From Ancylomarina subtilis (GTDB lineage Bacteria; Bacteroidota; Bacteroidia; Bacteroidales; Marinifilaceae), in NCBI RefSeq assembly GCF_004217115.1, contig NZ_SHKN01000001.1, positions 995,781-1,059,780 of the forward strand: 64,000 nucleotides of DNA, given 5' to 3'. Positions 6,640 through 49,991 of this stretch are shown in pieces; within the stretch, counting starts at the first letter, position 1; every line of letters starts with the position of its first letter. The notes beneath the pieces are model-generated. The model ran no database searches and was not told where the DNA came from. It saw nothing but the letters and a program-made list of their open reading frames with translations. A program made the translations under genes and the position numbers.

Positions 6640-7566
6640 TTATTCAACTGGCAAAGTAATCTCTAAAGGAATAGCCTCCATTTTTAAATTCAACCTCCTT
6701 TTTTCCGAAGCATATCGCCTAATCGGAACATAAAGCGTTTTATAGTTGATGTTCTCAATTATGAGTCGCTGCTCGCCCGCAGGGAAAGATTTAAATCTAA
6801 AGGTCCCTTTATTGGTAATATCAGTCTCCATATCAAGTCCTTCAACCTTTACAGAACCTAATGAAACAGGCTGATTTGTTGCCTGATCGGTTAAATACCC
6901 AATCAGATCGTAAGAATGGTGAACACCTTTGGCTTTTTGTCGTGTCGCAAAATAATGGTTGACAAATTCAGGCTCGGTTGCGCGTAAGTTTTCGATACTG
7001 CGATCGAGCTCTTTGCTCAATAGGCTATTGGTCTCTTTCATGAGCTCGGCAAAACTCTCCTGCGCTTGTTTCATATCTTTCTTCATCAGAATCTGATCCG
7101 AACGGCTTTGTGTAAAAGCATTAAAAACAGACTCCAGGTTTGCCAGGCTGGCTTCGGTAATTGAAAAAGCTGCCAATTCGGTCAGGTTTGCCTTAGCTAG
7201 TTCAATACACTGATCGGTAAATGCAATCAGATCAACTTCTTTATCACGTTGTAATTTCGATTTTGAGGTATTCACCAAAACCAACATTTTTACATCCTGT
7301 TTGCTATTGGCAAAGCAAACCAGCGCATTGGAAAAAGGATAAAGCTGATCAATTAATGTCTTTTTTAAACTCGCCTTTACCTCGGTTAACCAAACTGTGG
7401 GTTGGTCAATTTTTTCCCTCAGGCTCAAAAGCCTGCTTAAGGAAATTCCAAACCTATCGGCTTGCGCTTTAGTTGTCACATTGGTTTCGTACCGAGACTT
7501 ATTCTCAATCAACGTCTTATTCGTTTCCGCATAAGAATCCAGCTTTAAATTGTTATACGTATTCAT
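6640..7566 (-). CDS. Helical protein with C-terminal CarboxypepD_reg-like domain, paralogue 1
   Basis: 308 residues, no signal peptide. Residues 1-215 are predicted almost all-helical. Residues ~220-300 form a CarboxypepD_reg-like beta-sandwich: IGYLTDQATNQPVSLGSVKVEG, TDITNKGTFRFKSFPAGEQRLIIENINYK. A paralogue at 48373-49293 has the same architecture and aligns best around LxRSxENLxxxxPEFxxxYxxxxxxE...IGxxxDxxTxxPV. This beta domain is normally seen on secreted proteins, so a version without an export signal is odd. The gene sits ~700 nt downstream of a promoter shared with paralogue 2 and with the 41-46 kb cluster, and its leader holds a 21-bp repeat array. Function unknown. Confidence 0.75.
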   Translation of the reverse strand: MNTYNNLKLDSYAETNKTLIENKSRYETNVTTKAQADRFGISLSRLLSLREKIDQPTVWLTEVKASLKKTLIDQLYPFSNALVCFANSKQDVKMLVLVNTSKSKLQRDKEVDLIAFTDQCIELAKANLTELAAFSITEASLANLESVFNAFTQSRSDQILMKKDMKQAQESFAELMKETNSLLSKELDRSIENLRATEPEFVNHYFATRQKAKGVHHSYDLIGYLTDQATNQPVSLGSVKVEGLDMETDITNKGTFRFKSFPAGEQRLIIENINYKTLYVPIRRYASEKRRLNLKMEAIPLEITLPVE

Positions 7567-7758
7567 CTCAAAGTGTTTTGTGCCGTAAAATTCAATAGAA
7601 TAAACACCTCTTTTGGGGATTGAATCTCACTGCTGATTCATAATAGAAAAAATTAATTTGTATTGATTGTTCATGTATGGGAATTGTGTTCAGATTCTCC
7701 ACAGAAGCCTTTTATTCAGAAGATTTTATGTGTTTCATAGTTTATAAACATCCGATAT

Positions 7759-8073
7759 TTTCCAAAAGATTTAACATGTATTGAAAACCATTTAGTTCAC
7801 ATTGAATCCTATTCTGCATGCTTCGAAAGTCATTTTGCTGTTAATGAAACTGATTTTCATCTTTTCAAAAATCATTTTCTTGCTTTCGAATCTGATTTTC
7901 ATCTTCCCGAAAAGCATTTAGCTGCTTTCGAATTGCTTTTTATACCCATCGAATTTGATTTTGCTTTTTTCGAATAGCATTTAGCAGCCTTCGAATTCAA
8001 TTTCGTTCTCGTTGCAAAGCTTAAAGCTCTTTCTGAATTGCATTTTGTTTTTTCTGAAAAGCATCAAGCAGCT
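7759..8073. repeat. 21-bp degenerate tandem array 1
   Basis: Fourteen clear consecutive units of exactly 21 bp (7780-8073), plus one weaker unit at 7759-7779, with no insertion or deletion. Plus-strand units follow TTCGAA-4 variable bases-ATTT-GC-rich end; GAA at unit positions 4-6 is the best-conserved part. On the minus strand (the direction of the downstream gene) the units read as heptads near S-S-K-M-x-F-E, e.g. KMKIRFE, SKKMIFE, KMKISFI, NSKMTFE. Three of the 14 clear units have TAA in the Lys position, each followed directly by ATG. It lies in the leader of the gene starting at 7566. Confidence 0.85.
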
Positions 8074-8231
8074 TATGTACGCTTTATAGCAATCATCTCG
8101 TTAAAATAAGCCTTAGAAATATTGCTGACAACGAACATTGTCGAGGGGAGTGACTCAGCAAATTGGAAATACTTTGAATAGCGTTTCTAAAGTATTTAGA
8201 GAGCAACTTACAGAACAAAACTTCATCTTAT

Positions 8232-8305
8232 AATCTGCAAGCAAGTCCGCCATGGTGGTTGAATTGTAGATCTAAGTTAAAGAATAATTTCTTTAAACTC
8301 CAAAT
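8232..8305. repeat. ~75-bp segment with a partial copy at 17358-17430
   Basis: ATCTGCAAGCAAGTCCGC is identical at 8232-8249 and 17358-17375, and is followed in both places by GAATT..., TTAA... and CTTTAAA-CTC blocks. Here the segment overlaps the promoter of the 7566 gene. Confidence 0.55.
8272..8304 (-). promoter_or_regulatory. Shared-class promoter 1 (TTTGGAGTTTAAAG ... TAACTTAG)
   Basis: Minus strand: TTTG at 8304-8301, 21-nt spacer, TAACTTAG at 8279-8272. The extended string TTTGGAGTTTAAAG and the spacer length are the same at 46203-46235 and 49959-49991. The predicted transcript would have a ~700-nt leader containing array 1 before the start codon at 7566. Confidence 0.6.
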
Positions 8306-46235: not shown

Positions 46236-46801
46236 TCGACTAAACATTAACCACTGAAATTCGGTCACTTATCAATGAAAAAACAACATTCACGACACAT
46301 TAGATGTATTGATTTTACTACAGACTCACTCTATTTTCGAACAGAACGATTTTTTTTTATATCAGGATGTATTTCTTTATTTCGTATTGAAACTCACTAT
46401 TCGAAAACGAATATTTATCCGGATTTAACAATTCAATTGGATGGGGTCTATTCAATAACAAGAAGGCCCTAAATGTCTTCACTGGAATTTCTCATGGGAT
46501 TGACACTAAAATGTTTGGCTGTAGTCTATTCGTGGAAGGCTTATTTATGATCGGCTCAAAAGATGGCCCCTTTTAAGCCATATTCGTTTTACGAAAGCTT
46601 CAGAAAGAACGGGACGTTGAGAACTTGGTGCGATATTCTGAAAAAACGATTCGCACCCCAAGGCTTTATAAGTCATCAGATAATAAAACAAGAGGGCAAA
46701 CAAGACGCCAGGACATACACCAGTTCCCTCAGGAGCCTTTCCCGGAATTGCTCCCCTTATGCTCCTGCAGAAGTTTGGAGCAAACCGACAACAAATTTGA
46801 C
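46236..46801. other. Intergenic region without a supported gene
   Basis: Two short plus-strand frames (46275-46472 and 46563-46805) lack recognisable domains and start context. The segment 46480-46800 is richer in GC than its surroundings and may be a gene remnant, but I cannot assign it. Confidence 0.4.
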
Positions 46802-47095
46802 TTAATCGTTTTCATAAAGTCTTAATCTGTTTCTCAAAGCATTTAATTCGTCTCTCAATGCCTTTTCTTTCTCTAAAAGATTAAATACGACATCGATGCC
46901 TTCAATATTAACGTTTAGCTCGTGATGCAAACGGATCATTTTTTCGAGGTCACTTATTTGGTCCTGATGTATAAATTGATCTTGTTCAATGATTACAATT
47001 TGAATCAGTCCTGTTTGGTACAAAGCATCAATAAATGAAAATTCAATCTCGTAGTGCGAACAAAGGGTGGTTATTTCAATTAAATTCTTTTCCAT
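46802..47095 (-). CDS. cbpM: Chaperone modulator CbpM
   Basis: 97 residues with the CbpM/MerR-like pattern: an N-terminal wHTH (LIEITTLCSHYEIEFSFIDALYQTGLIQIVIIEQDQFIHQDQISDLEKMIRLHHELNVNIEGIDVVFNLLEK) and a short coiled coil (EKALRDELNALRNRLRLYE). It begins 1 bp after the cbpA stop and should bind the J-domain of CbpA and restrain it. Confidence 0.88.
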   Translation of the reverse strand: MEKNLIEITTLCSHYEIEFSFIDALYQTGLIQIVIIEQDQFIHQDQISDLEKMIRLHHELNVNIEGIDVVFNLLEKEKALRDELNALRNRLRLYEND

Positions 47096-48159: not shown

Positions 48160-48250
48160 TTAAATTACAAAATTTTAAAAGCAAACAATCAATCGAACTA
48201 TCGCAAAATCAGAAACATATCTAAAATAGAACCCATCTACATAATTAGGA
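48160..48250 (-). promoter_or_regulatory. Promoter module D (cbpA-cbpM)
   Basis: Minus strand TTG (48188-48186), 18-nt spacer, TAATTTAA (48167-48160). Upstream bases include TTCTATTTTAGAT and TAATTATGTAGA, close to modules A-C. Confidence 0.55.
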
Positions 48251-48267
48251 ATCCTTAATGAGAGGCA

Positions 48268-48302
48268 TAAAAAAGGTGTGATTTTCTCCAATCACACCTT
48301 TT
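48268..48302 (-). terminator. Terminator of the helical CarboxypepD_reg-like gene 2
   Basis: AAGGTGTGAT / ATCACACCTT stem with TTTTTTA after it on the minus strand, ~70 bp after the stop at 48373. Confidence 0.85.
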
Positions 48303-49460: not shown

Positions 49461-49796
49461 TCTGTGTCATAAACACAGGCCTCTGTGTTGCCATCGCCAT
49501 AAGCCATATTATCCTCACCGCCATCTGTTTCGCAACCCCGGGCATTTCTATCATCAAACCTAGAGGTTTATGCACCAACACCACAGTCTATGTCATCAAC
49601 ACAAAGGCCTGTGCGACCTACTCGAAACACGAATGAAAAGATTTGATTTTCTGTGTTATAAACGTCCTATTTTATGTCAGAATCATTTTTATCAATGTTA
49701 AAAACAACTTCCTCTATCGAGGAAATAAAAACAAACAAATTAACAACATCAGATTCTGAGTCGAAATCAGAAACCTCCGTTTAGAAATAAAAGGCG
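49461..49796. repeat. 21-bp degenerate tandem array 2
   Basis: Sixteen consecutive 21-bp windows with no indel. The strongest units are at 49461, 49482, 49587, 49650 and 49755; others are decayed. The consensus is TCTGTGTCAT followed by AAACACAGGCC. On the minus strand (sense of the gene at 49293) it reads as heptads near (N/R)-x-V-F-M-T-Q, with Gln CAG changed to TAG or TAA in several units. The last unit overlaps the segment shared with the leader of the 41-46 kb cluster. Confidence 0.75.
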
Positions 49797-49958: not shown

Positions 49959-49991
49959 CAAAGTTAAATAAATTATTCTTTAAGCTCCAAA
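49959..49991 (-). promoter_or_regulatory. Shared-class promoter 2
   Basis: Minus strand TTTG (49991-49988), 21-nt spacer, TAACTTTG (49966-49959), a full match to TAnnTTTG, with the extended TTTGGAGCTTAAAG. The predicted leader of ~660 nt contains array 2 and ends at the start codon at 49293. Confidence 0.65.

Follow-up and report, generated by a model that had tools for sequence, protein, structure and literature searches.

Tandem arrays with a period of about 21 bp accompany a family of helical-protein genes in Bacteroidota

Why would a tandem array keep an exact step over many units while the letters of these units drift apart, and what has the adjoining gene to do with it? The locus that raises this question lies in a stretch of 64,000 nt from Ancylomarina subtilis (contig NZ_SHKN01000001.1, positions 995,781 to 1,059,780; in the following called the window), where 14 units precede a gene for a 308-aa protein (Table 1). 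A strict 21-bp register without indels had been reported for these units in an earlier note, and this was confirmed: there are zero indels across the 294 bp, and the previously given boundaries (7759–8073) agree with ours within half a unit. The lag identity is 0.54, 0.63 and 0.58 at lags of 21, 42 and 63 bp, respectively, versus 0.32 at lags 20 and 22; 2000 Markov shuffles, scanned over all lags of 9–70, reached 0.44 at most. The array is real and far above chance, with a superperiod of 42 bp overlying the 21-bp period. Read in the sense of the gene, it shows the three TAA-ATG junctions of the earlier note. It ends 203 bp before the ATG of the downstream gene, and TRF detects only a part of it (7846–7940).

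Table 1 Features of the array locus and of a second family member in the window
Feature	Position	Strand	Basis or remark
Promoter-like motif, Bacteroidota type (TTTG, 20 bp, TTAACTTAG)	8272..8304	-	consensus match only
Conserved structured RNA-like element	8117..8241	-	between promoter-like motif and array; covariance model R1, E 1.8e-6
21-bp array, 14 units (42-bp superperiod)	7770..8063	-	leader of the 6640..7566 gene
Possible hairpin (GCAGT...ACGGC)	7582..7633	-	between array and ATG; read from sequence, weak
308-aa protein	6640..7566	-	all-helical N-terminal domain (1-211) and C-terminal transthyretin-like / CarboxypepD_reg-like domain (219-300)
Second family member, 306 aa	48373..49293	-	profile match and ORF
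Decayed or weak 21-bp array of second member	49523..49604	-	score 0.46; best lag 21 at 0.48
Promoter-like motif of second member (TTTG, 20 bp, TTAACTTTG)	49959..49991	-	read from sequence

Leader anatomy and the downstream protein

The locus anatomy in MARINIFILACEAE was compared among relatives from Ancylomarina, Marinifilum and Labilibaculum. In Marinifilaceae the locus begins with the promoter-like motif, followed by the structured RNA-like element, then by the array and finally by the gene. The promoter-like motif, of the general form TTTG-N19/20-TAnnTT(A/T)G, recurs at the same place upstream of the array at eight further loci (L022, L025, L071, L076, L023, L024, L072, L077). The RNA-like element that follows is 125–145 nt long across the compared loci (alignments A2 and A5). 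Its proposed helices are 91% paired in eight sequences (alignment A8) versus 28–44% when slid, four pairs show two-sided changes, and the covariation score lies above all 500 shuffles. Covariation among these few sequences gives the predicted structure moderate support. The covariance model finds the element at four of four close members in the same genome and at four of four in a second genome (G002), all within Marinifilaceae, the family for which it is documented; Rfam yielded no match above threshold. At a remnant locus syntenic with the window (L214; G004:C13, about 48163–48286), likewise found with the covariance model and adjoining a Band_7 gene, the motif and the RNA-like element are kept while array and gene are deleted. 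A counterpart of the possible hairpin next to the ATG, GCAGT...TACTGC, occurs at the homologous loci L025, L035, L036, L071 and L076.

The array had been placed in the leader of the gene, possibly a structured one. The label of a leader is reasonable, given that the array of Marinifilaceae is preceded by the promoter-like motif and the RNA-like element. The structure would belong to the upstream element and not to the array RNA, which lacks a consistent fold: a search for conserved folding of the arrays gave nothing consistent beyond column-shuffled arrays.

The C-terminal domain of the 308-aa protein matches Pfam PF13715 just under the cut-off (E 2e-7) and is the only part that matches a carboxypeptidase D domain in VIA (Z 12). 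An alignment-based AlphaFold model (pLDDT 88; the single-sequence model, with a pLDDT of 36, was useless) shows nine helices in residues 3–211, one of them 58 residues long, followed by a transthyretin-like beta domain. The Foldseek/VIA match list is dominated by this latter domain and barely covers the helical one. The helical domain gave no consistent match in Pfam, NCBIfam, PADLOC or PHROGs, and a PDB sequence search with the family profile A6 returned only designed coiled coils (E 0.02). By the sequence libraries it is an unrecognised family (family profiles A1 and A6).

Homologues of the protein are encoded in its own genome and in related genomes, again behind 21-bp arrays, of quite different sequence. 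Many members consist of the helical domain alone (about 215–240 aa), without the transthyretin-like domain. The members of the family are stand-alone chromosomal genes with long gaps upstream and varied neighbours, and neither tblastn searches of plasmids and phages nor a scan of viral contigs yielded relatives. A few neighbours are defence genes (Shedu, CBASS, CRISPR I-B), which do not amount to a defence-island pattern. At one locus (L026/L158, 6069–6716), array and helical-only protein are flanked by the cas6 and cas8b-like genes of a CRISPR operon of type I-B; at another (L118), an ORF for a DUF559-like endonuclease lies between array and family gene. Judged by eye, sequences upstream of the arrays at L043, L044 and L046 resemble attC sites of integrons (palindromes ending GTTAGC), which suggests that some modules may be gene cassettes.

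Pairing of array and gene, and drift of the units

A profile search over the order, together with a helical-domain profile search over the phylum, yielded 80 distinct family members for which the upstream DNA was long enough. Scanning all lags and calling an array at an upstream lag identity of 0.5 or more, we found a strongly periodic stretch at 70 of the 80 members versus 3 of 565 control genes (Fisher p 1e-78). The periodic stretch at L085 is a simple AT repeat, without which 69 of the 80 remain, and the three periodic controls include one orphan array and one coding heptad stretch. The orphan (L189, 999–1112; about 360999–361112 of contig C1 in the same genome as the window) is intergenic and has about 8 units of 21 bp (GGGAATG..GAAAAC), and no family gene lies near it. 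In 864 kb of this genome only four arrays with a period of 15–40 bp exceeded the threshold, all of 21 bp and three of them upstream of members.

The family occurs in several classes of Bacteroidota, and so do the arrays. Among 20 complete new loci from other classes, from AT-rich to GC-rich, 18 have a 21-bp array and a nineteenth (L103) mixes units of 20 and 21 bp. The class initially recorded as lacking an array comprised 13 members, five of which (L074, L079, L087, L088, L103) proved in the all-lag scan to have arrays with a period other than 21; at L073, L070, L031 and L033 the array is decayed or absent while the gene persists. In a tree of 80 proteins, with array states assigned before these off-21 arrays were recognised, arrays lie on both sides and losses are scattered. 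From sequence, array and protein form a conserved module spread over Bacteroidota, with a function that we infer below. Open-access searches found no description of it (subscription papers were outside their scope), and within these and the databases searched the module is without a described equivalent.

The unit length of the family arrays is 20.5–22 bp and nearly always 21, with 7–25 units (median 14) and a median of about 170 bp from array end to ATG. In all 43 arrays first tested the best lag was 21, 42 or 63, and unbiased period scans in other classes of the phylum agree with this. Clades with another period than 21 also remain close to two turns of the helix (20.5–20.7 at L103 and L054, 21.5 at L074 and L079, 22 at L087 and L088), and 20/21 or 21/22 units are mixed within one array. 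L074, L079, L087 and L088 form a clade in Marinifilaceae with units of 43 bp (21+22) or 22 bp. Between orthologues with arrays about 80–98% alike, indels within arrays measure 21, 42 or 84 bp, counting as one those gaps that the aligner split in two and that sum to 21 or 42, with the exceptions of one compensated 3/3 pair and a single base at an array edge; indels in the flanks measure 1–5 bp. Three pairs (L035/L036, L078/L073, L023/L092) were excluded from this count, as their arrays had turned over or diverged and the alignment was unreliable. Sister species differ in copy number by whole units.

Sequence identity, by comparison, is the same within the arrays as in the flanks. Below a protein identity of about 40%, units are no more alike than background, and the paralogues L112 and L123 have unrelated units at 64% protein identity. 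Recent homogenised expansions are seen at L119, L026, L036 and L081. The second harmonic of column conservation is strong (z = 6.8; separately 5.3 in Marinifilaceae and 4.9 in the rest), so that each unit has two conserved patches at a distance of 10.5 bp. The geometry of the arrays is held fixed while their sequence drifts freely. It is rare for non-coding sequence to retain its period and lose its letters across a whole phylum while remaining linked to a single family of uncharacterised proteins.

Possible roles of the array

The pairing implies one of two things: a new nucleoprotein assembly in which the DNA helix dictates the pitch, or a new partnership of RNA and protein. The best reading, which we hold tentatively and at somewhat less than an even chance, is that the array serves its cognate protein as a scaffold encoded in cis, with predicted binding sites that lie in phase. 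The module has two parts, a row of direct repeats (about 14, range 7–25) and the helical-protein gene next to it; each repeat, about two turns of DNA, would be a single site in a scaffold resembling iterons or operators. Since the two patches lie half a unit apart, both would be exposed on one face of the helix, and the protein, by itself or together with a partner, would assemble cooperatively along the row. The likeliest purpose would be self-control. The array of Marinifilaceae separates the promoter-like motif from the gene, and once occupied it would form a roadblock or silencing patch through which the protein sets its own level. Locus-specific units would keep the paralogues of one genome off each other's arrays. 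On a wider scale it is possible, rather than probable, that these are phylum-wide selfish or self-regulating modules that inherit the array geometry, whereas the sequence is free and gives each helical protein an address of its own. Genomes with several paralogues and different arrays are a natural set for studying how private recognition codes originate, and the module is directly testable in harmless, culturable marine Marinifilum and Ancylomarina.

In every clade the period comes to about two turns of the helix. This, the patch spacing of 10.5 bp and the mixed 20/21 or 21/22 units speak for a DNA scaffold and slightly favour DNA over RNA as the level at which the array would act. Against it stand the absence of a recognised DNA-binding domain from the family protein, the near-neutral helical domain (net charge −9 to +9 among members) and the purine loading of the arrays in the gene's sense, as in transcribed RNA; recognition would also have to change fast, given the unrelated units of L112 and L123. 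There is no 10.5-bp rhythm in array base composition, and phased A-tract curvature was rejected, as the A, T and W signals lack a second harmonic. The L055 array resembles the L044 and L046 units (AAAGAAATG) in reverse complement and is possibly inverted relative to its gene, an arrangement that may suit a function of the duplex; the correlation (r 0.79, versus 0.77 in an unrelated pair) is by itself not beyond chance.

Plasmid iterons and ParR-type centromeres are direct repeats of about 20–22 bp upstream of the gene of their binding protein, with a specificity that diverges between replicons. The arrays resemble them in being direct repeats of about two helical turns beside the gene of a putative binding protein; on its predicted binding to duplex DNA, the two conserved patches at 10.5 bp bear indirectly. 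They differ in being chromosomal, with several paralogues per genome and up to 25 units, and in the lack of a Rep, ParA or ParM partner and of a recognised DNA-binding domain; no replicon context with a Rep or Par NTPase was found, and no plasmid record matched.

Somewhat unlikely, as we judge the sequences, is a module at the RNA level, in which a transcribed repeat RNA (a long leader or a separate transcript) would bind and restrain the downstream protein or be assembled by it, comparable to the RNAs of type III toxin-antitoxin systems or to a ruler or scaffold RNA. The promoter-like motif and the covarying element upstream of the array would suit such a module, as would the purine fraction in the gene's sense (0.552 in the array and 0.556 in the gene, 0.507 upstream) and the scattered contexts of the stand-alone units, some of them next to Shedu, CBASS or CRISPR I-B. 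On the other hand, the arrays have no consistent fold in sense or antisense and no difference between the two, units of 20/21 and 21/22 bp are mixed within one array, and genes outlive decayed or absent arrays at the four loci named above, which a strict antitoxin would forbid.

Repeats of type III toxin-antitoxin systems (ToxIN, CptIN, TenpIN) are roughly 35–45 nt long and form a pseudoknot. Here as there, a single protein gene is immediately preceded by a tandem array, and the array by a promoter (here a promoter-like motif). The unit is half the usual ToxI length, present in 7–25 copies instead of about 3–6, shows no consistent fold beyond column-shuffled arrays, and stands before genes that persist without it. 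At the sequence level, no match of the helical protein to a ToxN-like endoribonuclease was found in Pfam or PADLOC. TRAP and other leader-array regulators bind as multimers to an array of short motifs in the transcript leader, and the TRAP sites share one motif at a period of 5–6 nt; the period of 21, the fold and the units that differ between loci set the present arrays apart. Repeat sequences that differ between loci are likewise known from type III systems (PMC8860590), so that the locus-specific units agree with the RNA reading in this respect.

A passive minisatellite, born by slippage, free of selection and with a common period owed to descent or mutational bias, is improbable and disfavoured. 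The recent homogenised expansions and the whole-unit changes of copy number between sister species are what slippage would give, but the period is kept over the phylum although the units are unrelated between clades, other array periods are nearly absent from the 864 kb, the arrays cluster upstream of one gene family, and the conserved columns form two patches.

Still less probable, indeed very unlikely, is a guide-like array of the TIGR or CRISPR kind, in which variable positions between the conserved patches would be spacers that target the protein. Arrays of TIGR-Tas systems have 5–15 dual-repeat units adjoining a helical-protein gene; their repeats agree within one locus but differ from one locus to the next (PMC12045711). 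The arrays studied here likewise adjoin a stand-alone helical-protein gene with 7–25 units, conserved within the locus, and in many of them a unit comprises two stretches that are conserved and two that vary. Their 21-bp unit does not correspond to the 36-nt processed TIGR unit with two spacers, however; many lack variable spacers altogether, with nearly identical units throughout at L119, L081 and L026, and they are chromosomal in Bacteroidota, whereas TIGR-Tas belongs to phages or CPR. A sequence search of 22 members gave no Nop domain at E up to 1, and no nuclease domain was found. As for CRISPR arrays, there is no Rfam match above threshold, and cas genes stand beside one locus only (L026/L158).

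A heptad-repeat coding sequence, eroded or living, or a chain of mini-ORFs, as proposed in the earlier note, is the least probable reading and is refuted as far as sequence can do so: the unit length of 21 is divisible by 3 and some arrays have an open frame by chance, but every one of the six frames of the window array has at least one stop, the 30 substitutions relative to the sister species Ancylomarina salipaludis (L022) are flat over the codon positions (9/10/11) and thus without third-position bias, column conservation in 54 non-redundant arrays has no 3-bp harmonic, and homologous loci show lags of 41, 43, 44 and 62 bp (43- and 44-bp repeats in one clade, 62/41/82 in other members). Coding heptads do occur elsewhere in the window, where a TRF repeat of 20/21 bp (46801–46865), unrelated to the array, lies within the gene of a CbpM-like protein.
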